Source: Clostridia bacterium
GTDB taxonomy: Bacteria; Bacillota; Clostridia; Christensenellales; Borkfalkiaceae
Direction: 5' to 3'
Assembly (NCBI GenBank): GCA_017886545.1
Contig: JAGHJS010000038.1
Coordinates: forward strand, 1 to 39,750
DNA: 39,750 nucleotides
In this document: positions 240 through 36,142 of the stretch, in pieces
How positions within the stretch are numbered: position 1 is the stretch's first letter
Layout: every line of letters begins with the position of its first letter
Notes under the pieces: model-generated
What the model saw: only the letters and a program-made list of their open reading frames with translations
Told to the model about the DNA's origin: nothing
Databases searched by the model: none
Made by a program: the position numbers and the translations under genes

Positions 240-676
240 TCACACTTTTTGCTTTTGCTCTTTGCGCTTTATGGAAAGCGTTACGGAAGAGGGTGAATTT
301 TCGCCCGTTCTATAATACGAAGCCCTAAAAAAGGGCAAAAAGAGGGGGAAACCAACATCCCGTAAGGGTGTCGGTTTCCCCCTTAACTCACGGCAAATCG
401 CAGCGCCGTTGCGCGAGATTTGCGTGAACCTTTTATAAGAATCCCCTGCGCGTCCGAAAACCACGCTTTTCGGAAAGCGCCCCCAATTTGCCGCATACTT
501 GCGGCTCAATTCGGAAAGAGTGAATGCGGCGCGCTGATAATCGAGAGCATTTGGCGCGCGCCGCAGAGAGAAAACCAAATGCAGAGCCGCGCTTTGTCGC
601 GGCGAACATTTGGTTGTCTCTCAAATCACGGAAAAAAGTTTTGTCTCTTTCAAAACTTTTTTCGTGACCCCCCTTC
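240..676. repeat. Structured repeat island A (two units facing the peptidase gene)
   Basis: This gene-free stretch holds two tandem copies of the multi-hairpin element. Unit A1 has an M2-type hairpin at 343-383 (stem AGGGGGAAACC with GGTTTCCCCCT) and an M3 hairpin at 388-427. Unit A2 has M1 at 448-534, with stem-loops at 453-474 (TCCGAAAA with TTTTCGGA) and 490-505 (GCCGCA with TGCGGC). Its M2 is at 566-621 and its M3 at 626-667. A2's M3 ends 9 bp from the stop codon of the M1-type peptidase gene. In the minus-strand transcript the A2 M3 hairpin would fold just after that stop codon. Confidence 0.75.
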
Positions 677-2119
677 TCACATCACCACTTTCCCTTCCCG
701 GAACGCGGCGATGATCTCCTCCGCCCCCTTATTGCGAAAGCTCGCCGCCAGGTCTTCGGGCGCGGCGAGCTTTCCCGCATAGTCCGCATAATAGCGGCGC
801 AGCCCCGCAAAAAAGCGGCGCTCGCCCAGCCCCTCGCGCAGGGTATCGAACAGCAGTTCCCCCTTGGCGTAGGAGAGCGCGACGTATTCGTATTCGCCGA
901 AGTCGGTAAGCGCCCTGTCCAGCGTGGTATCCGCTTCGCCGAACACCTGCATGCGCACCGAATAGTAGGCGTTGTACATGCCCTTCGCCGTGCGCAGCAG
1001 CCCTTCGCGCGTGAACCCGTACGCGCCGCCCGCTTCAAAGTACAGGAGCGCGGAATACTCTGCCAGCCCCTCGTCCTGCCAGGCGTGCATGGTCTGGTCG
1101 CTGCCGACGGCGGCATACCACCATTGGTGCGCCGTTTCGTGCACGAGCGTGTACGCCGCGTCCTCCTCCGCGAGCGCGTCCGAAACGTACACGAGCGCGG
1201 GGTACTCCATGCCGCCGTAGCAAAAGCCCGTCTGCACCACCGAATAGGTTTCGTACGCATATTCGCCGAACGTATCCGAAAACCAGAGCAGGCAGTCGCG
1301 CGCAAGGTCCGCGCTCCGCTGCGGCGCGGCGTCGTCATAGTAGTAATACAGGACGGTCGTCTCCCCCGCCGTGCGCTGTTCGACGGAAAATTCTTCGCTC
1401 AATACAACGGCGAAGTCGCGCGCGTTTTGCAGCGCCATTTCGTACTGCCTGCGCCCGCCGCTCTCCTCCGCCGCCGCGACCGTCCCCGATGACGCCGCCG
1501 TATACGAGGCGGGCACGGTCAGAGAAACGGCATAGTCGGCGCAGGCGCTGTAAAAGGGGTCGCCGTTCGAGGCGTACACGCATTCGCGGTAGCCGCTCCC
1601 CGCCTCCCACACGCACAGCACGGGATAAAAATTGCCGAGGTTGACGGTATGCTCCGTCACGCCCGTGCGGTGATCGACGTTCGCGAGCGTGAGCGTATAC
1701 GCCACCGAAATTTCGCACCGCCCGCCCGCGGGTACGGGCGAGGCGAGCCGCACGCGCAGCACGTTCTCGTCCGCGCCGCACACCTCCCATTCCGCGCAGG
1801 GCGAAACGGAGGAAATGCGCATCTCCCCGTAGCTTTCCCCCGCGTAATAGGCGGACGCCGCAAAATTTTTGGACACGGGCGCATACGCCGCCCCTTCGCG
1901 GTAGGCGTTGCCGCAGAGGTTGAACCGAAGTTCCTCCTGTTCCGCGCCCGTATCGTTGCAATAGCCGAAAGTCATCTCCGCCGTGAGCGTACCGTCCTCG
2001 TACGCCGCGTCGATCGTATAGGTGCTGCGCTCCCCCTCCCCCGCGCACCCCGCAAACAGGGCGAGCGCGAGCGGGCAGACGAGCGCCGCGCAGACAAAAA
2101 AGAGAAGCAGACGTTTCAT
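677..2119 (-). CDS. M1-family (gluzincin) metallopeptidase, predicted lipoprotein
   Basis: This is a zinc metallopeptidase of the M1 aminopeptidase type, predicted to be anchored outside the membrane. Residues 1-24 are a signal peptide ending in the lipobox LFAGC, with lipidated Cys25. The zinc site is HETAH at 327-331 followed 18 residues later by Glu350, inside WQDEGLAEY, the classic HExxH-x18-E arrangement. GGMEYP at 312-317 matches the substrate-binding GxMEN loop of the family. At 480 residues it keeps the N-terminal beta domain and the catalytic domain but lacks the long C-terminal helical domain of larger aminopeptidases. A strong site (GGAAGGAG) lies 8 bp before the ATG. It follows another lipoprotein gene by 80 bp, so the two are probably co-transcribed. 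The substrate is unknown. Confidence 0.85.
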   Translation of the reverse strand: MKRLLLFFVCAALVCPLALALFAGCAGEGERSTYTIDAAYEDGTLTAEMTFGYCNDTGAEQEELRFNLCGNAYREGAAYAPVSKNFAASAYYAGESYGEMRISSVSPCAEWEVCGADENVLRVRLASPVPAGGRCEISVAYTLTLANVDHRTGVTEHTVNLGNFYPVLCVWEAGSGYRECVYASNGDPFYSACADYAVSLTVPASYTAASSGTVAAAEESGGRRQYEMALQNARDFAVVLSEEFSVEQRTAGETTVLYYYYDDAAPQRSADLARDCLLWFSDTFGEYAYETYSVVQTGFCYGGMEYPALVYVSDALAEEDAAYTLVHETAHQWWYAAVGSDQTMHAWQDEGLAEYSALLYFEAGGAYGFTREGLLRTAKGMYNAYYSVRMQVFGEADTTLDRALTDFGEYEYVALSYAKGELLFDTLREGLGERRFFAGLRRYYADYAGKLAAPEDLAASFRNKGAEEIIAAFREGKVVM

Positions 2120-2147
2120 AGAAAAGATCTCCTTCCCCTATCATATG

Positions 2148-2182
2148 CACAGCCCTCCCGCGCAATGCGCGGGAGGGCTGTG
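2148..2182 (-). other. Perfect stem-loop between two lipoprotein genes
   Basis: A 35-bp near-perfect palindrome (arm begins CACAGCCCTCCC) lies between the lipoprotein stop codon and the peptidase gene. No T-run follows on either strand, so it does not look like a standard intrinsic terminator. It may stabilise or process the upstream message, or reduce expression of the downstream gene. Confidence 0.6.
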
Positions 2183-2199
2183 TTCGGCTTTCGCTTCCC

Positions 2200-3639
2200 C
2201 TATGCCTGTGCGGCGTAGCTGTCCACCGCGTCCGTTATCGTCTGCGGGAATTCGATCGGCTGCGTTTCTCCGATATCCGCAATGATCAGCGTCAGCGCGT
2301 CCACCCCGGGAAAGGCGGGGACGGAAAGCCCCGTCGCCGTAATGAAGTACGACCCGTCCTCCCGGAACTCGATCTCGATATTATCGCAGTAATTGTACCA
2401 CGCTTTCCCCGTATCGGTCAGCGTCAGCACATTTTCCGTTCCATCTTTCAGCGTGAAATATTCCCGACGGAAAGAGGAGAACGAGAACGTGATCAAAACA
2501 TCGGCCACGCTCTGCGCCGAACCGACCGTAACGAAAGGCACGGCGCCGTACATGCGCACGCTGTAAAATTGCTCGCCGCGGCGCACGGCGGCTGTGATGC
2601 CCTGTCCGCCTTCCGTCCCCGCCGTAAGCTGTTGCAGCTGTTCCCCTTCGTGCAGGTGCGCGTCAAACGAAACGGCCTGCTGCCCTGCCGCCGTAAGAAC
2701 GCCGTCGAAGAGCGCCGAATCTTCCCCCAGCGCCCATTCCATCTGCGCGTACAGCAGGTCTGCCTGCGTGAAAGAGGCGAACGCCTCCCCTGCGGCGGCA
2801 AGCTCGGGCACGTCGCTGTTGGCGCCGAGCCCGCGGAAGGAAAAGGTCACGGAAACGGGGAGCGCCGCCCCGCTCTCCGCCTCGTCCGTCTGTCCGGAAG
2901 AGGAGCCCGTCCATTCTTCTTCCCCGACGGGAGCTGCGCGTTCGCTGTCCGTTCCTTCTCCCGATGCGGAAGACGCTGCCAGGGAAAACGCGATCGTCGT
3001 TCCCTCATCGGAAAAGGTGACTGTCCCCTCCGATATCCCGTAGGCGGGCAGTTCGAACACGATCCCGCTTTCCTCCGCCTGTGCTGCCTCCTGAAACGCC
3101 GCCCAGAACCCGCTCAGATTGAGCAGGTTTTCCGTGACGATGGTCATGCACGCTTTCAGGGTACGCCACGCGGGGCGGTACTCGACGGACGCCTGCCCGT
3201 ACGCAGGATCCCACGGTTCATTTCCCCCGCCCGATTCCGCAAGGGCGAACGAATACAAATAGTCGCCGTCTCTCTTCCAATATTCCCTTTGGTCGTCGCC
3301 TATCCCTATATGCAGCTCCATGTAGCCGTTCACGCCGTCGTTGCAGAATTGCAGCCAGACCTCCTCCTCTTCATAAAGCGGCTCGCCCGTTTCAGGGTCC
3401 AGAACGGGCTTGTATGTACCGGTCAGCGGATCGTACTCCTCTTTTTCCGTCTTCCCTTTCGCATTGAATGCAAAAACAAACTTGTCCGTGTCCTCGTCCA
3501 CCGTATCGATGAACCTTTGCAGCCGCTCCGCCTGCGACGGCTCTTCGGCGGCAGGATCGCATGCGGCAAACGCCAAAAGCCCGCAAAACAAAACCGCCGC
3601 ACCGCAAAGCGCCGCCAGCGTCACCCAAAACTTCCTCAT
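2200..3639 (-). CDS. Predicted lipoprotein of unknown function
   Basis: A 479-residue secreted protein. The N-terminus has a positive start, a hydrophobic stretch to about residue 25 and the lipobox LLAFAAC, with the lipidated Cys near residue 27. I recognise no enzymatic motif in the mature part. It is acidic, rich in Glu, Ser and Thr in the middle, and alternates short beta-like segments, which suits an extracellular lipoprotein. The start is supported by AAGGAGGGAG just upstream and by a promoter at 3674-3702. It heads a probable two-gene unit with the downstream M1-type peptidase lipoprotein, so the two may act together at the cell surface. That link is inferred from position only. Confidence 0.75.
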   Translation of the reverse strand: MRKFWVTLAALCGAAVLFCGLLAFAACDPAAEEPSQAERLQRFIDTVDEDTDKFVFAFNAKGKTEKEEYDPLTGTYKPVLDPETGEPLYEEEEVWLQFCNDGVNGYMELHIGIGDDQREYWKRDGDYLYSFALAESGGGNEPWDPAYGQASVEYRPAWRTLKACMTIVTENLLNLSGFWAAFQEAAQAEESGIVFELPAYGISEGTVTFSDEGTTIAFSLAASSASGEGTDSERAAPVGEEEWTGSSSGQTDEAESGAALPVSVTFSFRGLGANSDVPELAAAGEAFASFTQADLLYAQMEWALGEDSALFDGVLTAAGQQAVSFDAHLHEGEQLQQLTAGTEGGQGITAAVRRGEQFYSVRMYGAVPFVTVGSAQSVADVLITFSFSSFRREYFTLKDGTENVLTLTDTGKAWYNYCDNIEIEFREDGSYFITATGLSVPAFPGVDALTLIIADIGETQPIEFPQTITDAVDSYAAQA

Positions 3640-3673
3640 CTCTCTCCCTCCTTGTATCGGTTTCTATATTTCA

Positions 3674-3702
3674 ATTTTACCATATACATTGTCGAAAAGC
3701 AA
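3674..3702 (-). promoter_or_regulatory. Sigma-A-type promoter for the lipoprotein gene
   Basis: On the minus strand TTGCTT (3697-3702) and TAAAAT (3674-3679) are separated by 17 bp. The -10 box is preceded by TATGG, as in the rplS promoter. Confidence 0.6.
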
Positions 3703-3851
3703 TATTTTTATGAAAAATTAAGAAAAATTGTCTGAAAATGATGATTCGGACAGGTCAAACGCGCATCCTGCCGCCGCAAAAGGGAAAAAAGCGCCTGCTT
3801 TTTTGAAAAAGCAAGCACAAAACGTACGGGCAGCGAGACGCCTTCCGCAAT

Positions 3852-3894
3852 AAAAAAACGCCGCCCCGCTTTCCGTACGGAAAGCGGGGCGGCG
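3852..3894 (-). terminator. Intrinsic terminator downstream of icd
   Basis: A 16-bp GC-rich stem (arms 3859-3874 and 3879-3894, loop GTAC) is followed on the minus strand by seven T residues (3852-3858). It lies about 65 bp past the icd stop. Confidence 0.9.
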
Positions 3895-3904
3895 CAGCAG
3901 CCTT

Positions 3905-3948
3905 TTATTTATGCGCCCGGCCGCCGCCGGATCGCCTGCAAAAAAGCG
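3905..3948 (-). pseudogene. Duplicated remnant of the icd 3' end
   Basis: The last 12 or so codons of icd recur about 52 bp downstream of the originals. The minus strand here reads [11 protein letters not shown]-stop, against [10 protein letters not shown]-stop at the true end. About 35 bp are nearly identical. It looks like a partial tandem duplication and has no start of its own. Confidence 0.65.
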
Positions 3949-3960
3949 ATAGCCGTTGTT

Positions 3961-5172
3961 TTATGCGTCCAGCCGCCGCCGGATCGCCTGCAAAAATTCG
4001 CGGGAGTTCAGCTTTTTCGGCGTTACGCCCTCTGCCTTGAACAGCGAAACGAGGTCGCCCGTCATCTCCCCTTCCTCGATGGTGCGCACCGTCGCCGCCT
4101 CGAGCTTTTTCGCAAACGCGACAAGTTCGGGGATGCCGTCCAGCTCGCCGCGCTTCGCGAGCGCGCCCGTCCAGGCGAAGATGGTCGCCACCGAATTGGT
4201 GGAGGTCTCCTCCCCCTTGAGGTGCTTGTAGTAATGGCGGGTGACGGTGCCGTGCGCCGCCTCGAACTCGTAATTCCCTTCGGGGGAGACGAGCACGGAC
4301 GTCATCATGCCGAGCGAGCCGTAGGCGGTCGCGACCATGTCGCTCATCACGTCGCCGTCGTAGTTTTTGCACGCCCAAACCATGCCGCCCTCGCTGCGGA
4401 TGACCCGCGCGACCGCGTCGTCGATGAGGGTGTACATGTATTCGATGCCCGCCTCTTCGAACTTCTTCTTGTATTCCGTCTCGTAAATTTCGGCAAAGAT
4501 GTCCTTGAAACGGTGGTCGTACGTCTTGGAAATGGTGTCTTTGGTCGCGAACCACAGCGGCATTTTCGCGCCGAGCGCATAGTTGAAGCAGGAGCGCGCA
4601 AAACTCTGAATGGACGTATCGAGGTTGTGCACCGACTGCACGATACCGCCGCCGCTGCTAAAATCCTGAATGAGGATCTTCTCTTTCACGCCGTCCGCGT
4701 TTTCGACGACGAGGTACGCCTTATCGCCCTTTTCGGTGCGCGTCTCCACGCCCGCGTACACGTCGCCGTAGGCGTGACGGGCGAGCGCGATGGGCTTTTT
4801 CCACCCCGGCACATAGGGCGTGATGCCCTTGGCGAGGATGGGCGCGCGGAACACCGTGCCGTCTAAGATGCGGCGGATGGTGCCGTTCGGGCTCTTCCAC
4901 ATCTTTTTGAGCTTGTATTCCTCCACGCGCTGGGCGTTGGGGGTGATGGTCGCGCACTTGACGCCGACCCCGTATTTTTTGTTCGCCTCGGCGGCTTCCA
5001 CGGTGACGGCGTCGTCCGTCTTATCGCGGTTGACAAGCCCCAGGTCGTAGTATTCCGTTTTCAGATCGATGTACGGAAGGAGCAGCTCCTCCTTGATCCA
5101 CTGCCAGAGGACGCGCGTCATTTCATCGCCGTCCATCTCGACGAGCGGCGTTTTCATTTGGATTTTTGCCAT
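3961..5172 (-). CDS. icd: Isocitrate dehydrogenase (NADP+), subfamily II type
   Basis: Oxidatively decarboxylates isocitrate to 2-oxoglutarate with NADP+ in the cytoplasm. The 403-residue protein is collinear with the homodimeric IDH group shared by eukaryotes and some bacteria rather than the E. coli type. Recognisable segments are MDGDEMTR near residue 14, [10 protein letters not shown] near 94-103 with the substrate Ser, Asn and Arg residues, and the cofactor region [10 protein letters not shown] near 308. The metal-binding Asp residues lie in the LIDDAVAR stretch near 250. The start is supported by AAGGAG upstream. It is monocistronic, with its own terminator. The window has no other TCA-cycle gene, so a main role in 2-oxoglutarate and NADPH supply is plausible but inferred. 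Confidence 0.95.
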
Positions 5173-5267
5173 GTTCCCACTCCTTGCTGAATTTTCCCTC
5201 TTATTTTACCAAAAAACGGAGAAAATCACAAGCGTTTGAACATTGCACGGGCGCAGTATTGCCGTAT

Positions 5268-6254
5268 TCAGATTTTAAAGTATCTTTGATTGCGGCTTGT
5301 CGGAGTGTCGGGGTCAGTCATGGCGATAAGCCCCGCTTCCAACGCCGGCTGCAAATAGTTCTTGCGGAACGTTGCGCGCGATTTCAAACCGAGCTTTTCC
5401 ATCAGTTCTGCCGCCGACATAGGATAAGTTTCGATGACGGACATCAAGGCATTGATCTGATTGCTGATATGGCTTTGATGGTTGCGCGTATTCCTTGCAA
5501 GTTCGGAGACTGCCCTTTGGATGATACCGAGCATAAACAGGATAAAACGGTTTGATTTTCCTTCCGACGTCGAAAGCCTGATCGCACGGTAATATTCTTC
5601 CTGATTGTCTTTGATGATACTCTCGATCGGGACCCACTCGAATATCGGCTTCCAACTTGCGAGCAATGCCGTCTGCCATAGCCTGCCCGTTCTGCCGTTT
5701 CCGTCCGCAAAAGGATGGATAAATTCAAATTCGTAGTGGAAGATACTCGAACGGATAAGCATCTGCGTCTTGCTTGTTTTCAGCCAATCGAACAGCTGTT
5801 CCGTCAGCCCTTTCACCATATCGTGCGGCGGAGCCACATGAATGACTTTCCCCTGTTCGTTGATAACCCCGACAGAGCTTGTGCGCAGTTCACCCGCTCC
5901 CTCAACAAGTCCCCGCATCATAACGCCGTGCGCTTTCTTTAAATCTTCCAAAGAAAAGGGATCGAGCTTTGGCAGCATTTTATAGACGGCAAAGGCGTTT
6001 TTAACGGCAAGGATATCGTCCTGCGGCCCTAATACGCGCTTTCCGTCAATGACATCCGTGACCTGTTCCAAAGAAAGTGTGTTGTTTTCAATGGCAAGGG
6101 ACGATTGAATGGACTTGATGCGGTTTACCCTGCGCAGGCGAGGCAATCTTTCCAAATCGCTTACATCGCTCAACCTGCCGAGAGCTTCCGTTATCTCCGC
6201 CGTCAGCTCCAGCATTTTCTCCGTAATCTCATAGGGAGGGACATATTTATCCAT
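5268..6254 (-). CDS. Fic-domain protein, class II autoinhibited AMPylase type
   Basis: Fic enzymes usually transfer AMP from ATP to a hydroxyl of a target protein. The catalytic motif HPFADGNGRTGR is intact near residues 180-191, with catalytic His and anion-binding Asn-Gly-Arg. The inhibitory helix motif SLAIEN (S/TxxxE[G/N]) lies near residues 52-57, ahead of the Fic core, which defines class II proteins whose Glu blocks productive ATP binding. The C-terminus has a winged-helix-like region (about 265-325). I chose the ATG at 6254 because GAGGTG precedes it; a GTG lies two codons upstream. No antitoxin gene is adjacent, consistent with intramolecular inhibition. A strong promoter (6282-6310) suggests independent transcription. 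The target is unknown. Confidence 0.92.
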   Translation of the reverse strand: MDKYVPPYEITEKMLELTAEITEALGRLSDVSDLERLPRLRRVNRIKSIQSSLAIENNTLSLEQVTDVIDGKRVLGPQDDILAVKNAFAVYKMLPKLDPFSLEDLKKAHGVMMRGLVEGAGELRTSSVGVINEQGKVIHVAPPHDMVKGLTEQLFDWLKTSKTQMLIRSSIFHYEFEFIHPFADGNGRTGRLWQTALLASWKPIFEWVPIESIIKDNQEEYYRAIRLSTSEGKSNRFILFMLGIIQRAVSELARNTRNHQSHISNQINALMSVIETYPMSAAELMEKLGLKSRATFRKNYLQPALEAGLIAMTDPDTPTSRNQRYFKI

Positions 6255-6281
6255 ATACACCTCAAAAATTTGATCGCTATA

Positions 6282-6310
6282 ATTATAGCAGAGGTTTCCG
6301 CCAAAGTCAA
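6282..6310 (-). promoter_or_regulatory. Sigma-A promoter for the Fic gene
   Basis: TTGACT (6305-6310) and TATAAT (6282-6287) on the minus strand are separated by 17 bp, about 28 bp before the chosen start. Confidence 0.85.
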
Positions 6311-6375
6311 TTCTTGTATGTTTTCTTAGTCGTTTTCTTATACTTACTTTCCCTGCCCTTACGGAGAAAGGACTT

Positions 6376-7530: not shown

Positions 7531-7559
7531 TGGTGCCTTACCGCAATTCATGGACTATT

Positions 7560-8028
7560 TTTCGCAAAAGCCTTTGCAAAAGCAAAAACCGCGACCCTTT
7601 TAATGATCTTTACGCGCGTTTTGAATAAGCGTTTTTGATAATTATATTGCGCGCGCAAAAACCACGTTTTTTGCAAGCGCACTCAATTTGCCGAAACCTT
7701 TCGGCTCACCCGAAAGGGGTGAATGCGGCGCGCTTAAATAATACCTCGCAAAAGCAAAAACCGCGGCCCTTTTAATGATCTTTACGCGCGTTTTGAATAA
7801 GCGTTTTTGACAATTATATTGCGCGCGCAAAAACCACGTTTTTTGCAAGCGCACCCAATTTGCCGAAACCTTTCGGCTCACCCGAAAGGGGTGAATACGG
7901 CGCGCTTATGATCGAGAGCATTTGGCGCGCGCCGCAGAGGGGAAAACGGCTGTCCCGCAAGGGCAGCGGTTGCCCCTCAAAATCGCGCAAAACCGCAGCA
8001 TCTCTTTTGCGAGGTTTGCGCGAAAAAA
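7560..8028. repeat. Structured repeat island B with a 172-bp tandem duplication
   Basis: This gene-free stretch between murF and ddl contains a near-identical direct duplication (7576-7747 and 7748 to about 7905). Each copy includes an M1 module: 7649-7733 and 7821-7905. Both M1 copies carry hairpins GCAAAAA/TTTTTTGC, GCCGAAA/TTTCGGC and CACCC/GGGTG between GCGCGC ends. A single M2 follows at 7937-7978, with outer stem GAGGGG/CCCCTC where other copies have GAGAGA/TCTCTC. M3 is at 7983-8023 and ends 5 bp from the murF stop codon. Confidence 0.8.
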
Positions 8029-13047: not shown

Positions 13048-13101
13048 CGTTTTTTTGGATTTTTTGCACGGCGAAAAGCGCCGCCCGAAAAGCCCAAAAA
13101 C

Positions 13102-13259
13102 ATTCTTTTCCTATCCGGACTATACCGTCGGTACGGGAATTTCACCCGTTCAGAGGTCCGCCGCCCGCCCGTGCGCCATGCGGCGCGCAAAACGCGGAGA
13201 TCGGCATTCCTGTCGCAGACTATACTGCCGGTGGGGAATCGCACCCCGCCCCAAAGAAT
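13102..13259 (-). ncRNA. FMN riboswitch aptamer (RFN element)
   Basis: Read on the minus strand, the segment has the RFN core in order: GGGGCGGGGTGCGATTCCC, ACCGGCAGTATAGTCTGCGA, then GGGTGAAATTCCCG, ACCGACGGTATAGTCCGGAT and a closing GGAAAAGAAT that pairs with GATTCTTT at the other end. These match the conserved loops and closing helix of FMN-sensing riboswitches. It lies between a consensus promoter and ribU, the usual arrangement for repressing riboflavin uptake when FMN is plentiful. Confidence 0.97.
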
Positions 13260-13277
13260 CCTTTTGAATCTGCCGTT

Positions 13278-19452: not shown

Positions 19453-19924
19453 AAAAAAACCTCGTTCACGAAAAAAGTTTTGAAAGAGACAAAACTTTTT
19501 TCCGTGATTTGAGAGACAACCGGCGGGACGCCCGTTCCGCGGGCTAACCGCCGTTTTTCTCTCTGCGGCGCGCGCCAAATGCTCTCCATTATAAGCGCGC
19601 CGCATTCACTCTTTCCGGATTGAGCCGCAGGTATGCGGCAAATTGAGTGCGCTTATTCAAAATGCGATTTTGAAACGCGCAATAAAATCATTTCAATAAT
19701 AACTCGCGCAAGCAAAACCACGCTTTTGCGTTAGCGCAACCCTATTTGGCAATGCCTTGCCTCTTGCAGGAAAGGTGAAGCCGCACGATTTCTTTAATGG
19801 TGTGCCCTAAATCATCGTGCGGCGAGGAAAACCTCCGCCATCTCGAACGCAGTGAGAGTGGCGGGGTTGTCCTCAAATCGCAGGATTTCGCAGGCAGCAG
19901 CCTGCCGAGAAATCCGCGAGCCCC
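19453..19924. repeat. Structured repeat island C (two outward-facing units)
   Basis: The whole gap between hslU and hisS is two copies of the multi-hairpin element pointing outward. The left unit faces hisS: M3 19466-19507, M2 19511-19563, M1 19595-19680. The right unit faces hslU: M1 from about 19705 to 19790, M2 19824-19874, M3 19878-19919. M3 ends lie 13 bp from the hisS start and 5 bp from the hslU stop. The right unit uses GGCAA/TTGCC in its second M1 hairpin and GAGG/CCTC in M2, differing from the left copy but still paired. Confidence 0.8.
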
Positions 19925-25702: not shown

Positions 25703-26089
25703 GAAAAAACTCCGTTCACGAAATTTCTTTCAAAAGAGATGAAAGAAATTTCCGTGATTTGAGAGACAACCGGCGGGCACGCCCGCGTTGCGGGCTAACC
25801 GCCGTTTTTCTCTCTGCGGCTCGGCAAAACAACGCCCGCCTTGCTGCGGGTCGGCAATCGCCAACCCGCATGCGCTGCGGCATTGTTTTGCCTCTTTCCC
25901 AAAAATCTCGCACTGCTTTCGCACGCTGCGATTTTCGGGAGCCCTGTAAAATGCTCTCCATTATTAGCGCGCCGCATTCACTCTTTCCGAATTGAGTCGC
26001 AAGTATGCGACAATTTGGGGGCGCTTAGGCAAAAGTGTCATTTTGCCACGCGCAGTTGATTATTTGAAAATTACAAAGATTCTCTACGG
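25703..26089. repeat. Structured repeat island D, unit facing topA
   Basis: Reading away from topA: M3 25716-25757 (arms TCACG...CGTGA), M2 25761-25815 (outer stem GAGAGA/TCTCTC), an extra long hairpin at 25823-25892 (GGCAAAACAA with TTGTTTTGCC), an M3-like hairpin at 25897-25940 with the GCA/GA internal loop, then M1 at 25967-26053. M3 ends 13 bp before the topA ATG, just ahead of its ribosome site. The same insert of extra hairpins, in the same order, occurs in island E. Confidence 0.78.
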
Positions 26090-26285
26090 TGTTATCTTGA
26101 GCGGAGCGGCACAGCAGGCGTTCCCCTGTCATCCTGAGCGGAGCGGCGTAGCAGGCGTTCCCCTGTCATCCTGAGCGGAGCGGCGTAGCAGGCATTCCCC
26201 TGTCATCCTGAGCGGAGCGGCGTAGCAGGCATTCCCCTGTCATCCTGAGCGGAGCGGCGTAGCCGCGCAGTCGAAGGATCTCTAT
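26090..26285. repeat. Five tandem 37-bp repeats
   Basis: Units start at 26090, 26127, 26164, 26201 and 26238, exactly 37 bp apart, each carrying TGTCATCCTGAGCGGAGCGG or a close variant. The first is diverged and the last ends in CGAAGGATCTCTATT. Units are contiguous with no unique spacers, so it is not a CRISPR array. Fragments of the unit recur at positions 1-193, and a shorter related copy follows near 26308-26336. Confidence 0.92.
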
Positions 26286-26829
26286 TAAAATATTGACAGT
26301 ATTCGCATAGAGATCCCTCGACAAGCTCGGGATGACAAAAACAGAAAAATATCTTTCAATAATAACTCGCGCAAGGGAAATCGCAATTTTCCGCAGCGCA
26401 ACCCAATTTGGCAATCCCTTGCCTCTTACAGGAAAGGTGAATGCGCGGCATTGATAAATATGTGTGCCCCAAACAAGGGGTACCCCGAAAATCGCAGGGC
26501 GTAGCCCGAGATTTTTGGGGAAGAGGAGAAACAGTGCCGCGGCGCTTGCGGATTGCCTTTGGGCAAACCGCTGTAACGCGGGTGCTGTTTCGACGAAGCC
26601 GCGCAGAGGAAAACCTCCGCTGTCCCGACCAATTACAGGGTTCCCAAAAATCGCAGCGTGCGAAAGCACTGCGAGATTTTTGGGAAGAGGAGGAGCGGAG
26701 TGCGCATGCGAGCTTTGCACCTTAGGGCAAAGCGAGAGCGCAGCCGACAACTCCGACGAGGGCGGCGGTGTCGCCCTCAAATCGTAAAAATCGCAGGCGT
26801 CAGCTCGCCGAGATTTTTACGAGACCCCC
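26286..26829. repeat. Structured repeat island D, unit facing dprA
   Basis: This gene-free stretch continues island D toward the dprA stop. M1 runs from about 26368 to 26451 (hairpins GGAAA/TTTCC and GGCAA/TTGCC). Three M3-type hairpins with the GCA/GA internal loop follow at about 26481-26520, 26642-26686 and 26777-26823, with M2-like paired segments between. The last hairpin ends 6 bp from the dprA stop codon. Confidence 0.7.
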
Positions 26830-29429: not shown

Positions 29430-29448
29430 AGAACGCTCCTTCGCGAAA

Positions 29449-29474
29449 GCGCCGCGCGTATACACGCGCGGCGC
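29449..29474. other. Perfect 11-bp stem-loop between the glycosyltransferase gene and comM
   Basis: Arms GCGCCGCGCGT and ACGCGCGGCGC enclose a four-base loop. It lies 10 bp past the glycosyltransferase stop. No clear T tract follows, so it may be a processing or weak termination hairpin. Confidence 0.6.
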
Positions 29475-29484
29475 CCGTATTCTT

Positions 29485-31695
29485 TTATCGGTACCAACCG
29501 TTGTTTGCAAACGTCGTCCAGCCGAACATCCCCGCCGCGGCAGCCGCCGGGAGCGGAATGCAGAAGACCATGGGAAGCGACAGCACGAAGATGACCGCAT
29601 ACACGGCGAGCAGCCAGAAGAGCACCCACTTTGCGCTGTTCATGCGGATGCGCCCGAACAGCTTTGTGCGCTCGCGCGTGTCCTGCGCCGAAACGGTGTA
29701 GAAGGTCAGCGGGATGAACGCGAGGTAGAAGCAGTTGAACAGCATGCTCTGCGCCGCGCTCACCTGCCCCGCAAAGAGGTACGGCAGCAGCGCGGACACC
29801 AGCCCCGCCAGCAGCACGAAGTACGCGCGCAGCACGGTCGGCGCGTGTTTGGATGCGTACGCCCCCTTCTGCCCGCCCGTAACGCAGTACAGGATCGCGT
29901 ACACGGTGAGGAAGAGGAACCCGACCAGCGCGGTGACCGCCATGGCGAGGTTGACCTGCGCGTTCAAAGCGATATAGGTGCCGTCCGCCGTGGCGGAAAA
30001 GAGAGTCGCGCCCTTCAGGCCGATGAACCAGCCGAAGGCGTTCACCGCATTGCCCGCGGTAAACGACGTCGCGTTCGTCAGCGAGAAGGCGTCCCCGAAC
30101 ATATGCCCGAGCAGGTCGAAGATGCCCGCCGTCGCGCTCGCGGGGTTCGGGTCGTACAGATATACCAGCGCCGAATAGGACGGGATCGCCGAAAGCACGA
30201 TGAGGAGGAAGGAACCGAGCACGAACGCCGCGAAGAACAGCAGATACACCAGCCTGCGCGCATAGGACAGTTCGCCGCCGAGCGCGGCGCTCTTCTCCTC
30301 CGCCGCGGCGGCGTTTTCGAGCATGACCTCGCGCGACGTTTCCTTCGCGTTCGCCTCGCGCATCTCCCCGCGCAGCGCCTGCCGCTTCGCCCTGTACTGC
30401 CGTTCGAGACGCACCACGCCCGCGATGAACAGGGCGACGATGCCCACGCCCGCCAGCAGAATTTTGGGATCGGAGGCGACCGCTAAGGCGAACAACAGCC
30501 CCGAAACGAGGATGTTGCACGCGCTCTTTGCGGGCTTTTCCTCCGAAAGTCCGCGGTCAAAGAAGCGGTACATGAAGTAGAAGGAGCCGACGATGAAGAA
30601 GGCGAGCATGGGCAGGTACAGCCCCAGCCGGCCCACGGTGAGCGCCAGCCCCCCGCCCGCGAACAGGCAGGCGGTCAGGAATGCCCAGCCCTCCTTTTTG
30701 CTGTCGCCGCGCGCGAACAGTTCGCGCGCCAGCAGCCAGACCATCCAGACCGTCGCCGCCATAAAGAGCACCGAAACGATGCGCAGCCCGAACGCGCTCC
30801 GCCCGAAGATGAGGGTAGACAGCGCATAGGGCAGCACGGCAAAGGTGCCGTGGTCGGTATCCGCGTTGAACACGCTCCCCTGCGAAAGCCCGCGCGAGCC
30901 GAGCTCGACGACGTTTTCGATCTGCATGAGCGTGTACATCTCGTCCTCGGTGAAGTTGGAATACGCCGTATCGCCCGCCGTATAATTGTACTGCGCGTCC
31001 AGAAGGTTATATAAACCGTAATGGTGCTTCTCTTCCTTTTTGGTCTGCTCTCTGAAAGCGTCGCCAAACGTGACCCACTTATAGGAAGAGTTTGCGTTGA
31101 AAAAGGCGTGCACGGTATCGTAATCCACATAGGCGGGGATCACGCTGCCGTTCGTATCCACGAACACGACTTCGTTGATGAGCATGTCGCAGGACGCGGT
31201 GATCTGCACCAGCCTGCGCGTGCTCGTCAGCGTGGAATCGTTCGACTCGTCGCGCACCTGCACCCAGTTGTAGTTAGTGCCGACCGCGTTCGCGCTCGAA
31301 GAATAGACGTTGGAAAAGGTCTTGGCGCCGAAACCGTACGAAGAGCCCCACGGAGAATCGCTCGTGCTCGTCGCCGATGCCGTGCGCACGGTGATGGTGT
31401 ACGTCGAACCGATCTCCGTATACGCCGTGCCCGCGTTGATGTACACCTTGTCCAGCGTGGCGCTGTTCTGGTAATCGAGGTAGAACACGACGGAGCTGTC
31501 CGCCTGCAAAAAGCAGGCGCCGCCGCCCCCGTTGAACCCGCCGATGGTGCACGCGCCCACCACAAAGAGCGCAAGCACGAGGATAAGCGCCGCCTTGGTG
31601 AACTTCGACCACCGCGCGAAGAAATTTTTTACCTTTCCGCTTTTGTTTCCGCTGCCGTATGCCTCGGAATACTTTGAAATCTTGTTCGCTGCCAT
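29485..31695 (-). CDS. GT-C-fold (PMT/GT39-like) membrane glycosyltransferase with a large outward domain
   Basis: A 736-residue polytopic protein. A first transmembrane helix lies near 34-54. About 190 hydrophilic, Ser/Thr/Tyr-rich residues follow, beta-rich and resembling F5/8-type C (galactose-binding-like) domains. The GT-C part then starts: TDHGTFAVLPYALSTLIFG, then FGLRIVSVLFMAATVWMVWLLARELF, the region that in lipid-phosphate-sugar transferases follows the catalytic acidic residue. At least eight more transmembrane helices follow. The donor is probably a polyprenyl-phosphate sugar, but donor and acceptor cannot be told. The start at 31695 has AAGGAA upstream and a promoter at 31748-31776. 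The start of an unrelated plus-strand gene lies 237 bp away. Confidence 0.75.
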   Translation of the reverse strand: MAANKISKYSEAYGSGNKSGKVKNFFARWSKFTKAALILVLALFVVGACTIGGFNGGGGACFLQADSSVVFYLDYQNSATLDKVYINAGTAYTEIGSTYTITVRTASATSTSDSPWGSSYGFGAKTFSNVYSSSANAVGTNYNWVQVRDESNDSTLTSTRRLVQITASCDMLINEVVFVDTNGSVIPAYVDYDTVHAFFNANSSYKWVTFGDAFREQTKKEEKHHYGLYNLLDAQYNYTAGDTAYSNFTEDEMYTLMQIENVVELGSRGLSQGSVFNADTDHGTFAVLPYALSTLIFGRSAFGLRIVSVLFMAATVWMVWLLARELFARGDSKKEGWAFLTACLFAGGGLALTVGRLGLYLPMLAFFIVGSFYFMYRFFDRGLSEEKPAKSACNILVSGLLFALAVASDPKILLAGVGIVALFIAGVVRLERQYRAKRQALRGEMREANAKETSREVMLENAAAAEEKSAALGGELSYARRLVYLLFFAAFVLGSFLLIVLSAIPSYSALVYLYDPNPASATAGIFDLLGHMFGDAFSLTNATSFTAGNAVNAFGWFIGLKGATLFSATADGTYIALNAQVNLAMAVTALVGFLFLTVYAILYCVTGGQKGAYASKHAPTVLRAYFVLLAGLVSALLPYLFAGQVSAAQSMLFNCFYLAFIPLTFYTVSAQDTRERTKLFGRIRMNSAKWVLFWLLAVYAVIFVLSLPMVFCIPLPAAAAAGMFGWTTFANNGWYR

Positions 31696-31747
31696 GTTTT
31701 CCTTCCGTTCGGTATGGGCGCCGCCCGCAGGCGTACCCGTATAGTTC

Positions 31748-31776
31748 ATTATACCGCAAAACGGCGTTCGGGTAAA
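31748..31776 (-). promoter_or_regulatory. Promoter for the membrane glycosyltransferase gene
   Basis: TTTACC (31771-31776) and TATAAT (31748-31753) on the minus strand, 17 bp apart. The -35 box is poor but the -10 is perfect. Confidence 0.7.
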
Positions 31777-31932
31777 GCGATTTTCCGTACTTTTTCGGCA
31801 GGAAACAAAAAAGCGGGCTGCGCGCCGCCCCTTCCCCTTCCGTTTTTTACAAAACTTTTACACAGCGATAACGCGGAGCTTACAATCGTGCGGTATACTT
31901 TGGGCAAATCTTCGCAGGAGGGATCGCCGGAC

Positions 31933-32427
31933 ATGATCCTCGATTGCACGCAAAAATACAATGCTTCCTACGCGCGGCTTTTGGGCGAGCGGAGCGGCGA
32001 ACGCGTCGTTCCCCTGCGCGAAACGCTGGAACGCGGCGAGGAATGCGAGCTCTTTTCGGGCAGCGCCTATATCCTTGTTGCGGACTTCAAGACGGTATTT
32101 TCGCGCAAGTTCATCAAAAATTTCAAAAAACTCAGCCTGAAGGGCAGCCGCATGCTGTACTGCGTGTTCGTCTGCTCCTCCGTGCGCGGCGCGGGGAACT
32201 CCCTGAAATTTTCGCAGACGCGCATGTACGAACAGCTCGCCGACATGCTTTTGCGCAGCTGCGGGCTAGTTCTGTTCGGGTACGACTGCATCTGCGGCGA
32301 GGAAGACATCTCTTCCCTCTCCCGCGTGGCGGCGTATGCGCGGGACGCGCGCCCCTTTGACTGGAACGGCGAATTCCCCCGCCGCGCCAAAACGGCGCAG
32401 CGCAAGCCCGCCGCCGCGAAGGCGTAA
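31933..32427 (+). CDS. Conserved-looking protein of unknown function, the only plus-strand gene
   Basis: A 164-residue protein with no domain I can name. The middle (about 45-115) alternates hydrophobic strands and helices, as in AYILVADFKTVFSRKFIKNF, MLYCVFVCSSVRGAG and LLRSCGLVLFGYDCICGEED, a pattern that loosely recalls flavodoxin-like folds. The tail is Lys/Ala-rich. I chose the ATG at 31933 because GCAGGAGGG precedes it; upstream codons in the same frame have no ribosome site. A TATACT box at 31894 may be its -10, without a clear -35. A bidirectional-looking terminator follows at 32621-32658. Codon use is like that of the neighbours, so it is probably a real gene. Confidence 0.65.
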   Translation: MILDCTQKYNASYARLLGERSGERVVPLRETLERGEECELFSGSAYILVADFKTVFSRKFIKNFKKLSLKGSRMLYCVFVCSSVRGAGNSLKFSQTRMYEQLADMLLRSCGLVLFGYDCICGEEDISSLSRVAAYARDARPFDWNGEFPRRAKTAQRKPAAAKA

Positions 32428-32620
32428 ACGACCCGCACACGGCGGCGCAACGCCCCTGCCCTTTCAAGGGGTGAGGCGCGGCTGACCGAAACGCGGCGCA
32501 GCGCATGCTTGCGGCAATGCCCCTGCCCGCCTTTGCGCGGCAAGGGCGAAAGCCCCTCCGTTTTCTGCATACCCTCTGCGGCGATACCGCCGTATTGTGT
32601 TCATCCTATCCTCTTTTTAT
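32428..32620. other. Gene-free gap after the plus-strand gene
   Basis: About 190 bp with no start-plus-ribosome-site combination, no recognisable RNA gene and only short GC-rich palindromes. Nothing I can name is present before the terminator at 32621. Confidence 0.5.
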
Positions 32621-32658
32621 AAAACGCCCTCCCCCGCATTGCGGAGGAGGGCGTTTTA
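32621..32658 (+). terminator. Intrinsic terminator of the plus-strand gene
   Basis: Arms AAAACGCCCTCC and GGAGGGCGTTTT enclose a GC-rich loop, followed by TTTTATT on the plus strand. It has A/T tails on both sides, so it may work in both directions. Confidence 0.85.
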
Positions 32659-32759
32659 TTGCCTCTGACGAAAAACCGCGGCGCCGATACGCCGCGGCGC
32701 GAAGTAAAGCCGCCCCGCTCCGTTCAGGAGGACAGCATAGGGGGAAGCCACTTTTCAAT

Positions 32760-33121
32760 AATCGAATTGCGCGCGCAAAAATCACACTTTTTGCAAGCGC
32801 ACTCAATTTGCCGCAAACCTGCGGCTGAACGGGAAAGAGTGAATGCGGCGCGCTAATAATGGAGAGCATTTCACAGGGCTCCCGAAAATCGCAGCGCTTT
32901 CGCGCGCTGCGAGATTTTTGGGAAAAAGGCAAAACAATGCCGCTGCGCTTGCGGGTTGGCATTTGCCGACCCGCGGCATGGCGGGCGTTGTTTTGCCGAG
33001 CCGCAGAGAGAAAACAAAATGCAGAGCCGCCGCAGGGAAACCCTGCGGCGGCGAACATTTGGTTGTCTCTCCGATCACGGAAAAAAGTTTTGTCTCTTTC
33101 AAAACTTTTTTCGTGAACCCT
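32760..33121. repeat. Structured repeat island E, facing rplS
   Basis: One complete element: M1 32769-32853 (hairpins GCAAAAA/TTTTTGC and GCCGCA/TGCGGC), an M3-like hairpin with GCA/GA loop 32880-32923, a long hairpin 32928-32997 (GGCAAAACAA/TTGTTTTGCC), M2 33006-33071 with a very strong inner stem GCCGCCGCAGGG/CCCTGCGGCGGC, and M3 33075-33116. M3 ends 5 bp from the rplS stop. The order of modules is the mirror image of the topA-facing unit in island D. Confidence 0.82.
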
Positions 33122-33466
33122 TTACCTTACTTCTTTGATCTTCGCCGCTTTGCCCGTCCTGCCGCGCAGATAGTACAGCTTGGCACGGCGCACTTTGCCC
33201 TTGCGGATGACCTGGATATCCGCGATCTTGGGAGAGTGCACGGGGAAGGTGCGCTCTACGCCGACACCGTACGAAAGACGGCGCACGGTGAACGTCTCAC
33301 GGATGCCGCCGTTCTTCTTTGCGATCACAACGCCTTCAAACGCCTGGATGCGCTCGCGCGTACCTTCGATGACCTTCACGCTCACCTTTACGGTATCGCC
33401 GACGTTGAACTGGGGGACGTTCTCTTTCAGTCCTTCCTTTTCGATCGCTTCGATCAACCCTTTCAT
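33122..33466 (-). CDS. rplS: 50S ribosomal protein L19
   Basis: A large-subunit ribosomal protein at the 30S-50S interface. The family signatures are all present: [22 protein letters not shown] near 20-41, [11 protein letters not shown] near 41-51, the [18 protein letters not shown] block near 62-79, and the C-terminal [20 protein letters not shown]. The length is 114 residues. GGAGGTAA lies ahead of the ATG. In many Bacillota rplS directly follows trmD, but here rbgA, rnhB and yraN intervene and rplS has its own promoter and leader. Confidence 0.98.
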
Positions 33467-33497
33467 CGACTTTTACCTCCTTGTTACAGTGCGTTCA

Positions 33498-33513
33498 TTG
33501 CGCCGATGCGCAA
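33498..33513 (-). promoter_or_regulatory. Leader hairpin of rplS, possibly an L19 autoregulatory element
   Basis: TTGCGC and GCGCAA pair around ATCG in the rplS 5' leader, between the promoter and the ribosome site. Bacillota have a known L19 leader RNA family. Whether this leader belongs to it needs a covariance search. Confidence 0.45.
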
Positions 33514-33537
33514 GAGGACCGCCCGAAGTCTTTTGCT

Positions 33538-33566
33538 ATTTTACCATAAACCGCACGGCAACGCAA
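33538..33566 (-). promoter_or_regulatory. Sigma-A promoter for rplS
   Basis: TTGCGT (33561-33566) and TAAAAT (33538-33543) are separated by 17 bp on the minus strand, giving a leader of about 65 bases before the rplS start. Confidence 0.75.
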
Positions 33567-33622
33567 CCGTTTTTGCTTTGCGTGCGGCAAGTTTTTTCTC
33601 TTTTGCAAAAAATTCTTTGCGC

Positions 33623-33985
33623 TCACGCGCCGAACGCGTTTTCGATGTGGCGGACGCGGTCGTCGAACACTTCCACCACGTCGAAGCGGATAAACAGCTC
33701 CTCCCCCGCCAAGCTCTCGTAGTAGCGCGCGATCTTTTTATAACGCTCCCGCTTGTGGTACTCCACCGCCTCGGCGGGAGTGCCGAACGCCTCCGAAAGG
33801 CGCGTTTTGACCTCGCAGAAGACGATCGTCTCCCCGTCCTTTGCCACGATGTCCGCCTCGCCGAAGGGCGTTTTATAGTTTTTGGCGAGCAGCTTGTAGC
33901 CCAGCTTTTTCAGGTATTTTGCGGCGCGCCGTTCCCCCGCCCTGCCGAGAGATTTTTTGTGAACGTCTTTCGATGGATCGGGCAT
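33623..33985 (-). CDS. YraN/UPF0102 family protein (nuclease-like fold)
   Basis: A 120-residue protein of the UPF0102 group, which has an endonuclease-like core but no settled function. The fold-defining residues are visible: GRAGERRAAKYLKKLGY near 14-30, FGEADIVAKDGETIVFCEVKTR near 41-62 (Glu, Asp and ExK of a PD-(D/E)xK site), and HKRERYKKIARYYES near 77-91. The start at 33985 was set by where the family begins. It overlaps the end of rnhB by 76 bp in another frame, unusually deep. The rbgA-rnhB-yraN order is typical of Bacillota. Confidence 0.9.
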   Translation of the reverse strand: MPDPSKDVHKKSLGRAGERRAAKYLKKLGYKLLAKNYKTPFGEADIVAKDGETIVFCEVKTRLSEAFGTPAEAVEYHKRERYKKIARYYESLAGEELFIRFDVVEVFDDRVRHIENAFGA

Positions 33986-34566
33986 AGACCGTACTCCCTT
34001 ATGGCGGCGATGTGCGCCGCCGTGCCGTACCCCTTGTGTTTTGCGAACCCGTACTGCGGGTACTGCGCGTCGTACTCGCACATGAGCGCGTCGCGGTACA
34101 CCTTTGCGAGGATGCTCGCCGCGCCGATGCTGTACGAGAGCGCGTCCCCCTTGACGATGTTCAGCTGCGGAAGATCGATCCCGATGCGGAAGTTCCCGTC
34201 CGTGAACACGACGTCGGGGACGATCGCAAGCTGTTCGACGCAGCGCTTCATGCAGCGCTTTGTCGCCTCTAAAATGTTGATCTCGTCGATGGCGGCGGCG
34301 CTCTCCTCGCACACCGAATAGGCGACGGCGCGTTCGCGGATGAGGGCGGCGAGCCGTTCGCGCTCGCTCTCCTTCACCTTTTTGCTGTCGTCCACGCCTT
34401 CGATGAGCGACGCTTCGTCCAGCGGCAGGATGACCGCCGCGCACACGACGGGCCCTGCCAAAGGTCCCCTGCCGACTTCGTCGACGCCCGCGATGTACTG
34501 CGCGTGCGCCGCGAGCATCTCGCGCTCGAAACGGAGCTTTTCCTCCGCGTTCCACTGTCTTTTCAT
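33910..34566 (-). CDS. rnhB: Ribonuclease HII
   Basis: Removes ribonucleotides and RNA primers from DNA. The N-terminal catalytic block GVDEVGRGPLAGPVVCAAV near 27-45 holds the first acidic pair, DDSKKV follows near 58, and later acidic residues lie in FTDGNFRIG and the YRD after ASILAKV. HRKTF near 200 is the usual family end. The last 14 residues (LSAGRGNGAPQNT) extend past it and lie in the overlap with yraN, so the tail is probably not important. It starts 18 bp after rbgA. Confidence 0.96.
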   Translation of the reverse strand: MKRQWNAEEKLRFEREMLAAHAQYIAGVDEVGRGPLAGPVVCAAVILPLDEASLIEGVDDSKKVKESERERLAALIRERAVAYSVCEESAAAIDEINILEATKRCMKRCVEQLAIVPDVVFTDGNFRIGIDLPQLNIVKGDALSYSIGAASILAKVYRDALMCEYDAQYPQYGFAKHKGYGTAAHIAAIREYGLCPIHRKTFTKNLSAGRGNGAPQNT

Positions 34567-34584
34567 GCGTATGCCCCTGCTCTT

Positions 34585-35442
34585 TCAGCCGAAAAAGCCG
34601 CGGAAGTCCTCCGCGCGCTCCAACGTGATCCTGCCCAGCCGCCCCTTGCGGAAGTCGTCCACGACCGCCTTGCCGCCGCGCTCGTAGTCGAACGCGCCGC
34701 CGCGCAGCAGAAAGCCGCGCGCGCGGCACACCTGCTCGTACATGGCGAGCGGCGCGGAAAAATCGGTGATGCTGTAGCGCGCGGTCAGATACTGCGGATA
34801 CGCCTGCGCGATCTCGCCCAACAGCTCGAGCGCGATCTCGTCCATGTCGAGGATGTCGTCGTTGATGCTGCCGATGTAGGCGAGGTGTCTGGCAAGCGCC
34901 TGGTTTTCAAAGGAGGGCGGCATGGTGCCGGGGGTATCGAGGAGTTCGAACCCTTCGCAGCGGATCCATTGTTTGCCACGCGTGACCCCCGCCTTATCGC
35001 CCGTAACGGCGCGCTTTGCGCCGCTGAGCGCGTTGATGACGGTGCTCTTGCCCGTGTTCGGGATGCCCGCCACCATCAGCCGCGGGGGGCGGGTCATGCC
35101 CTTTGCCGCGTCCCGCGCGAACTTTTCTTTCAACAGTTCGGGGAGTTTTGCCGCGATCTTCGAAGCCGCACCCTGCGCCGTCGCCGTGCATTTGAGGGCA
35201 AAGGCGGACTTTGCGATCTCCGCGACGAAGGCGTCCGTCTTTGCCTCGTCGGCAAGGTCGCACTTGTTCAGCAGATATAAGACGGGTTTTGCGCCGAACA
35301 GCTTTTTTAAGTTTTTGTTAAACGTCGCCGCGGGCGCGCGCGCGTCGAGGACAAAGAGCACGCCGTCCACGAGCGGCACGTTCTCCTCCATCATGCGCAT
35401 GGCTTTCGTCATGTGCCCGGGGAACCATTGGATGTGTTTCAT
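34585..35442 (-). CDS. rbgA: Ribosome biogenesis GTPase RbgA (YlqF)
   Basis: A circularly permuted GTPase that completes late 50S assembly. The permuted order is visible: G4 NKCD near 58-61 comes before G1 GIPNTGKST near 124-132, then G3 DTPG near 168-171. The N-terminal IQWFPGHMTKAMR near 4-16 is typical. The C-terminal helical domain runs from about 190 to 285. The length is 285 residues. It is preceded by an M3 hairpin of island F with GAGG between the hairpin and the ATG. It leads the rbgA-rnhB-yraN unit. Confidence 0.97.
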   Translation of the reverse strand: MKHIQWFPGHMTKAMRMMEENVPLVDGVLFVLDARAPAATFNKNLKKLFGAKPVLYLLNKCDLADEAKTDAFVAEIAKSAFALKCTATAQGAASKIAAKLPELLKEKFARDAAKGMTRPPRLMVAGIPNTGKSTVINALSGAKRAVTGDKAGVTRGKQWIRCEGFELLDTPGTMPPSFENQALARHLAYIGSINDDILDMDEIALELLGEIAQAYPQYLTARYSITDFSAPLAMYEQVCRARGFLLRGGAFDYERGGKAVVDDFRKGRLGRITLERAEDFRGFFG

Positions 35443-36142
35443 AAGAAAACGACCTCACACGTTTCTCGCGCAAAGGCGCTGCGAAACGTCGTGATTTTAG
35501 GGAGACACCATTGTTCGCGGCTTTGCCGCTCGGCAATGGTTTCTCCGCTCTTTTCGCCCTCTTTCAGGGCTTTCCTATTATAGAATGGGCGAAAATTCAC
35601 CCTCTTCCCGTAAGCCGCAGGTATGCGGCAAATTGGGTGCGCTTTCCGAAAAGCGCGGTTTTCGGACGCGCAATAATTTCCCTCGTGCAAACCTCGCCGA
35701 GCTGTCCGCTGCGGTTTGCTGCGACTTTGAGGACAACCCCACTGCTCTCACTTCGTTCAAGACAGCGGAGGTTTTCCTCGCCGCACGATGATTCAGGGCA
35801 CACCATTATAGAAATCGTGCGGCTTCACCTTTCCTGCAAAAGGCAAAGCATTGCCAAATGGGGTTGCCCTGCGGAAAATTGTGATTTCCCTTGCGCAAGT
35901 TATCATTGAAATGATTTTACTGCGCGTGCCAAAATCGCAATTTTGGCTAAGCGCACCCAATTTGTCGCATACTTGCGACTCAATCCGGAAAGAGTGAATT
36001 TGCGCGATTTTTTAATAGGTGAAGCCATTATGATCGCGCAAAGAGAGAAAAACGGCGGTTAGCCGCAACGCGGCGTGCCCGCCGGTTGTCTCTCAAATCA
36101 CGGAAAAATTTTTTGTCTCTTTCAAAAAATTTTTCGTGAACA
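35443..36142. repeat. Structured repeat island F (three units, outward-facing)
   Basis: The 700-bp gap between trmD and rbgA holds three copies. F1 faces rbgA: M3 35455-35494, M2 35501-35545 (stem GGAGA/TCTCC), M1 35588-35671. F2 has the same direction: M3 35691 to about 35735, M2 35739-35789, and a C2-like M1 up to about 35900. F3 faces trmD: M1 35922-36007, M2 36043-36094, M3 36098-36139. The outermost M3 hairpins end 12 bp from the rbgA start and 3 bp from the trmD stop. F3's second M1 hairpin is GTCGCA/TGCGAC, a compensated change from GCCGCA/TGCGGC. Confidence 0.82.

Follow-up and report, generated by a model that had tools for sequence, protein, structure and literature searches.

A structured, modular intergenic repeat in Borkfalkiaceae, probably a family of short mobile DNA elements

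The DNA analysed here (the window, 39,750 nucleotides, contig JAGHJS010000038.1) belongs, as contig C64, to a metagenome-assembled genome of a Clostridia bacterium from the Borkfalkiaceae (2.06 Mb, 91 contigs, 85% complete). It carries the housekeeping genes hisS, hslU, topA, trmD and those for DprA, ribosomal protein L19 and SRP54, together with a gene for a Mg-chelatase-like ATPase. Six intergenic islands are occupied by a multi-copy, modular element with a fixed order of parts, which had been pointed out in an earlier note on this DNA, and which is seen both in the sequence and in the matches of a covariance model, R1. The copies probably belong to one family of short mobile DNA elements that are non-autonomous and under selection for their fold; so far the elements have been found in a single family of gut Clostridia. 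R1 is a single model that spans the element from its leader to the 5' strand of its fourth hairpin, and it matches 12 cores in the window. The earlier note had counted about ten copies from position 343; there are indeed many copies, but the count and the start need revision, as there are 12 cores and an extra copy begins near 209.

A unit without nested modules is about 230 bp long. The copy at 441-669 is predicted to fold into five hairpins (H1-H5), with z = -9.9 as DNA and -7.6 as RNA for its fold energy against shuffled sequences; a second copy, at 35911-36141, gives z = -7.2 as RNA. The 5' part consists of a T-rich flank and an AATAATC leader, followed by H1, in which an outer GCGC/GCGC pairing encloses an inner stem of AAAA/TTTT plus a variable clamp. 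CAATTT stands between H1 and H2 and is missing in class 2 (see below). After H2 come a purine linker with TGAA at its end and then the third hairpin, H3 (GCGGCGCGC...GCGCGCCGC), which has an AT-rich tip. H4 has a purine/pyrimidine outer stem in which an A-G mismatch is usually kept, as the earlier note had seen: it is present in the fold of 441-669 and in the commonest H4 types, and A-G accounts for 27 of the 71 single-mismatch hairpins. H5 is a long palindrome, often with a CGTGAAC end. A complete copy typically runs from AATAATC to GTGAAC, as judged from end logos (which include redundant and reversed matches) and from one pair of copies that are 94% identical (L078 and L098). The copy at 431-668 ends in CGTGACC, and therefore the ends vary. 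With its AATAATC start and GTGAAC end, a single unit has no terminal inverted repeats, which does not fit a classical miniature inverted-repeat transposable element; GTTCACG-type ends are possible on both sides of head-to-head dimers. Three sequence classes (1, 2 and B) have this module order in common and are all found by R1, and optional nested hairpin modules occur in or near H1, in H3 and in H4. The module order given in the earlier note stands; the H3 hairpin, the sequence classes and the nested modules had been overlooked. The copies in the window are listed here.

E1, 209..429, plus strand: class 2, with H1 GCAAAAGCAAAAATCACACTTTTTGCTTTTGC, linker GGAAGAGGGTGAAT, H4, and H5 ending GCGTGAAC; R1 core 209-350, H4 and H5 by sequence reading.
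E2, 431..668, plus strand: class 1, complete; R1 core 430-574, folds and sequence. Its parts are the leader, H1 448-480 (inner stem 453-474), H2 490-505, linker 513-525, H3 525-565, H4 566-622 and H5 626-667.
E3, 7576..7759, plus strand: partial, within a tandem duplication shared with E4; R1 core 7631-7759.
E4, 7803..8024, plus strand: complete, with GGGG-type linker and H4; R1 core 7803-7945.
E5, 19466..19698, minus strand: class 1, head-to-head with E6, the 5' leaders overlapping; R1 core 19555-19698.
E6, 19688..19920, plus strand: class B, with GGAAAGG linker and GAGGAAAAC H4, ending about 5 bp from the hslU stop; R1 core 19688-19831.
E7, 25716..26071, minus strand: class 1, its H3 containing an optional nested hairpin module at about 25820-25947; R1 core 25806-26071.
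E8, 26351..26824, plus strand: class B, with nested hairpin modules; R1 core 26351-26491.
E9, 32751..33118, plus strand: class 1, its H3 containing a nested hairpin module; R1 core 32751-33014.
E10, 35455..35689, minus strand: chimeric, with class-1 H1 and H2 and class-2-type linker, H3 and H4; R1 core 35542-35689.
E11, 35683..35914, minus strand: class B, head-to-head with E12; R1 core 35772-35914.
E12, 35904..36141, plus strand: class 1, complete, ending just before the trmD stop; R1 core 35904-36051.

Nested modules lie at 25820-25947, 26480-26770 and 32870-33014 in the window, and also in loci L009, L012, L017 and L216; they often begin ACAGGG(C/T)TCCC and take a like H3 position in different species. 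The local tandem duplication of a partial element, which E3 shares with E4, consists of 7576-7736 and 7748-7908 (172-bp spacing, 98% identity). A second repeat family, TGTCATCCTGAGCGGAGCG...GAAGGATCTCTAT, occurs at 26090-26285, with a 37-bp tandem array at 26090, and again at about 130-195; stretches like it adjoin several element islands on other contigs.

The search of the genome and its relatives with a covariance model, which the earlier note had proposed, gave 108 core matches genome-wide at E <= 0.001 (150 of 1035 candidates scored), grouped into 64 clusters. BLAST with 448-667 as the sole query found 56 genome matches. The window is rich in elements, with 12 cores against 2.1 expected, about six times the genome average. 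Ten cores lie less than 300 bp from contig starts, against 1.4 expected, a pattern that near-identical copies would produce. The same BLAST query detected the element in 34 of the 37 genus genomes and gave no match in 24 genomes that each represent another family of the order. Within the family, R1 matched 32 of 121 genomes, from 5 of 18 genera (E <= 1e-8). Counts per genome are lower bounds, with 13 candidates scored per genome in the BLAST survey and 25 in the R1 survey. The named relatives with the same DNA pattern are mainly uncultured Clostridia, including Ca. Borkfalkia faecavium and Ca. Gallimonas caecicola (Ca. Borkfalkia is placed in Christensenellales by NCBI); these are gut bacteria, an origin that some of the database records state. 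Carriage by phage was considered, as nine IMG/VR loci matched the DNA pattern, and was rejected: the best R1 score among them was 16 bits (E 0.014), and nothing was convincing. Among 80 of the 85 pattern-matched stretches, seven (L032, L067, L072, L074, L083, L094 and L107) are from neither Clostridia nor other Firmicutes and have no R1 match, and are therefore taken as chance pattern matches.

Pairing was examined in two alignments. A1 is a structure-free MAFFT fit of 72 of 74 core sequences (one was too long and one was cut at a locus end), the 74 being derived from 94 stretches, while A2 was fitted to the model and holds the best 150 of 171 matches from 93 chosen sources. Paired cells made up 86.8% in A1, against 35-49% when the partners were slid by 1-3 columns, and 93.8% in A2, against 39-51% in the slid controls. 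Together with the fold-energy z scores this excludes chance. Changes on both sides were seen in 24 of 26 pairs in A1 and in 24 of 26 in A2. Covariation in H1-H3, the hairpins covered by the test, exceeded a null of 60 alignments simulated without structure along the inferred tree (G-test covariation with average-product correction, E < 0.05) at 23 of the 26 tested pairs with A2 and at 14 with A1; the pairs below the threshold in A1 include all four of the outer GCGC stem and all but one of the six in H2. Because covariation exceeds this tree-simulated null, the data support selection on the H1-H3 fold, in which pairing is kept while the letters change. This agrees with the earlier note, which had seen that the stems differ yet stay paired and had proposed that a folded molecule is selected. 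The shape of the element looks to be conserved more than its sequence.

Further signals lie outside the given structure. Among them, columns 33 and 37 covary strongly and would lengthen H1 by one pair. The linker columns covary strongly with the 5' strand of H4, in a repeat-like rather than complementary relation: GAAAGAG goes with GAGAGAAAAC, GGAAAGG with GAGGAAAAC and AAAGGGG with GAGGGGAAAAC, with exceptions. H4 was parsed in 138 of the 150 A2 rows (9 had no 5' tract and 3 no 3' strand), by a permissive search that makes some parses doubtful. Since the two purine tracts covary as near copies, the H4 3' strand might pair with either.

Of 75 neighbouring pairs, pooled from the window's own genome and the A2 rows of other genomes (which are not independent), 56 are tandem, 19 head-to-head and none tail-to-tail. 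The leaders overlap by 9-12 bp in 11 of the 19 head-to-head pairs, the overlap lying around ATTATT-NN-AATAAT in many of the junctions listed; among the tandem pairs, 11 have fused cores with an overlap of 30-31 bp. In the window, nine H5 ends face outward, and each lies about 1-14 bp from the end of a flanking gene. The orientation to genes is mixed, with 14 copies codirectional and sense, 9 antisense, 13 between convergent and 8 between divergent genes. These are crude calls, made with a picker that takes the longest open reading frames (ORFs) in a GC-rich genome: of 55 matches 52 were used, an ORF was picked on either side of 44 of them, and in 18 of the 52 the match itself overlaps a picked ORF. 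Remnants of a 3' tail behind complete ends were found in 0 of 98 cases, with a filter that also removed cases visible by eye.

Gene junctions were compared between species, where gene blocks are collinear and the breaks fall at gene ends. In the topA/dprA gap R1 finds cores in the window and in relative G009, and none in G021, G025 or G031; the gap is about 1.1 kb in the window, compared with 112-144 bp in the three core-free relatives. On the rplS side there is one core in the window and in G009, and none in G021 or G022. On the trmD side cores occur in G009, G021 and G031 as well as in the window, but not in G022 (all by R1). Between hisS and hslU, cores are present in the window, G009, G025 and G031, while G021 has only a lone H5-like hairpin, which may be what is left after a dimer was deleted between its two palindromic H5 ends. 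The elements of the window and G009 differ at this junction, yet share the start point CCTC|GTTCACG. Between leuC and leuD a forward core is found in L036 and L103, a reverse one in L141, and none in the gap of L020, L062 or L106. It is because the orthologous junctions are polymorphic and the orientation to genes is mixed that mobile DNA is favoured. Of the two possibilities left by the earlier note, a mobile element is thereby strengthened, and a discrete non-coding RNA is without positive support from the wobble counts described below.

Several points, from the junctions, the stems and the search for an enzyme, weigh against mobility. The core-free topA/dprA gaps of G021 and G025 contain an H5-like remnant by eye, so that loss occurs as well as gain. 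A clean empty site was sought between species and not found, no target-site duplication or exact joints being readable; the compared genomes are about 65-98% identical in aligned blocks, and their intergenic DNA does not align. In favour of mobility, L078 and L098, on different contigs of one assembly (CASDPE, which matches G009), are identical at 94% over 236 columns from AATAAT to GTGAAC. The other pairs, above 96% identity, among the matches listed are local duplications (window 7576-7908, L108), orthologous stretches or part-copies (L015/L016), and therefore make no case for recent dispersal of whole copies. Also in favour, partial elements of G024 stand in a tandem array at a contig end (contig C1 1-547, L222; period 210 bp, 99% identity), and G027 has a 215-bp pair that is 99.5% identical. 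Against it, part of the turnover could come from recombination between resident copies.

Alternatively, the islands might be remodelled by recombination between copies and consist of palindromes resident between the genes, whose pairing is preserved by gene conversion and template switching and not by selection. The shuffled modules and the local tandem duplications (window 7576-7908; G024) would suit this, as would islands at the same junction that share an end point yet differ inside. We nevertheless regard it as unlikely, given that the conserved blocks and the A-G mismatch (27 of 71) should not survive such correction, and that presence and absence at junctions requires gain or loss of whole units. 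Quasi-palindrome correction as such could yield compensating changes without selection, but fits less well because it should erase the conserved A-G mismatch of H4.

Wobble pairs were counted as an indication of whether the folded molecule is RNA or DNA. Over all cells of A2 there were 51 G-T and 54 A-C pairs, compared with 8:0 in FMN (flavin mononucleotide) riboswitches of the family (29 of 30 loci, the window's own being left out) and 9:4 in 17 tRNAs (Fisher p = 0.008 for the element against the controls). When only cells flanked by Watson-Crick pairs are considered the ratio is 28:20 against 15:4, which is not significant (p = 0.16), and single-mismatch hairpins have 17 G-T and 4 A-C, which is RNA-like; without H5-like hairpins, which have an extra G, this count becomes 6:4. 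We lean weakly towards folded DNA rather than RNA, the wobble argument being a weak one. A class of structured non-coding RNA, acting in trans or in cis within mRNAs and duplicated many times, would account for the covarying hairpins and conserved sequence blocks over about 230 nt, for an AATAAT leader that could resemble a promoter -10 box, and for the unfiltered 17:4, which is like the RNA controls. It is improbable, however, since flanking genes lie in both orientations, the element is missing at orthologous loci, G-T does not exceed A-C in A2, and 17:4 drops to 6:4 without H5.

The element looks like a new, previously undescribed family. A search of the window with Rfam (4227 models) gave no match to the element at gathering score, in agreement with the earlier note, which had not recognised a named family; the sole match was a minus-strand FMN riboswitch at 13099-13262 (97.7 bits). 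When window 1-700 was searched at a relaxed E <= 10, the 10 matches obtained all fell far short of their gathering scores and were at chance level. No description of the element was found in the literature within open-licence PubMed Central. Elsewhere in the window, a 479-aa ORF at 2200-3639 has no NCBIfam or Pfam match at E <= 0.001.

No mobilising enzyme was found in searches for four types. The Y1 (HUH) transposase PF01797 has no match in the window's own genome, which is 85% complete, and matches in 23 of 40 genomes of the genus; across the 37 of these in the BLAST survey, Y1 and element counts are negatively correlated (Spearman -0.38, p = 0.02, kinship ignored; rank-sum p = 0.11). Reverse transcriptase (PF00078) is present in 4 of the 40 and not in the window's genome, which does not fit a retron or group II intron, and the IS110 transposase (PF01548) in 5 of the 40 and again not in that genome, which does not fit a bridge-RNA system. 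The Y2 transposase PF04986 (IS91 or helitron-like) was found in 0 of 40, a negative without weight because the control genomes likewise had no match. Y1, reverse transcriptase and IS110 were all undetected in 10 of 21 element-rich genomes; draft genomes miss genes, and therefore the absence of a gene for a mover is no proof. A GTAG/CGTC-type tag at the hairpin foot was not seen in the end logos, no dedicated test being run.

REP, REPIN and BIME repeats occur as inverted pairs and mosaics, as does the element. With their RAYT transposases they are also alike in hairpin units, high copy number and possibly a transposase that reads structure, according to PMC3116915, PMC6006769, PMC3733652 and PMC8266576. 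REPs are 20-40 bp long (PMC3733652), compared with about 230 bp here, and the Y1 transposase of a REP/RAYT system was not found in the window's genome. The ends of IS200/IS605-type insertion sequences (IS) have no terminal inverted repeats, like the element. They have subterminal secondary structure as well (PMC6006769), whereas the element has five hairpins and a T-rich flank and, once more, no Y1 gene in its genome. BOX of Streptococcus pneumoniae is similarly small, dispersed, modular and variable in length, with strong predicted secondary structure; in PMC3049150 its authors judge BOX to be parasitic mobile repeats, with mobility proposed from a likeness to IS terminal inverted repeats. 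By description, and not by comparison with boxA-boxB-boxC sequence, the element differs in that its single unit has no terminal inverted repeats and its stems vary widely. It thus looks to work like REPIN or BOX, and is filed as neither. That it is a known structure-recognised transposon (REP/REPIN with a Y1 RAYT, or what remains of an IS200/IS605 element or of an IS110 element with its bridge RNA) is very unlikely: the hairpins, the single unit without terminal inverted repeats, the REPIN-like inverted pairs and the Y1 matches in over half of the genus genomes speak for it, but Y1 was not found in the window's genome or in the 10 element-rich genomes, its counts run against those of the element, and IS110 is confined to a few genomes.

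If the copies are mobile DNA, a putative protein would recognise the hairpins when folded, most probably in single-stranded or extruded DNA. Insertion would take place beside AT-rich sites; where such a site is the leader of a copy already present, head-to-head dimers would result. Recombination would then shuffle the modules. Selection would maintain the fold because only foldable copies would spread. A more specific proposal, which we hold to be doubtful, is a new class of mobile DNA without inverted repeats that is moved as a folded single strand by a structure-reading enzyme, and may switch between two pairings during strand exchange.

Covariation this clear in three hairpins seems unusual for a mobile, non-coding bacterial repeat, although this is a judgement and not a measurement. 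It also suggests caution: before intergenic DNA of conserved structure from metagenomes is classed as regulatory RNA, both the orthologous sites and the strand should be tested. If it is the fold that is conserved, the copies in these Clostridia provide a ready-made set of natural variants with which to look for the protein that recognises it.

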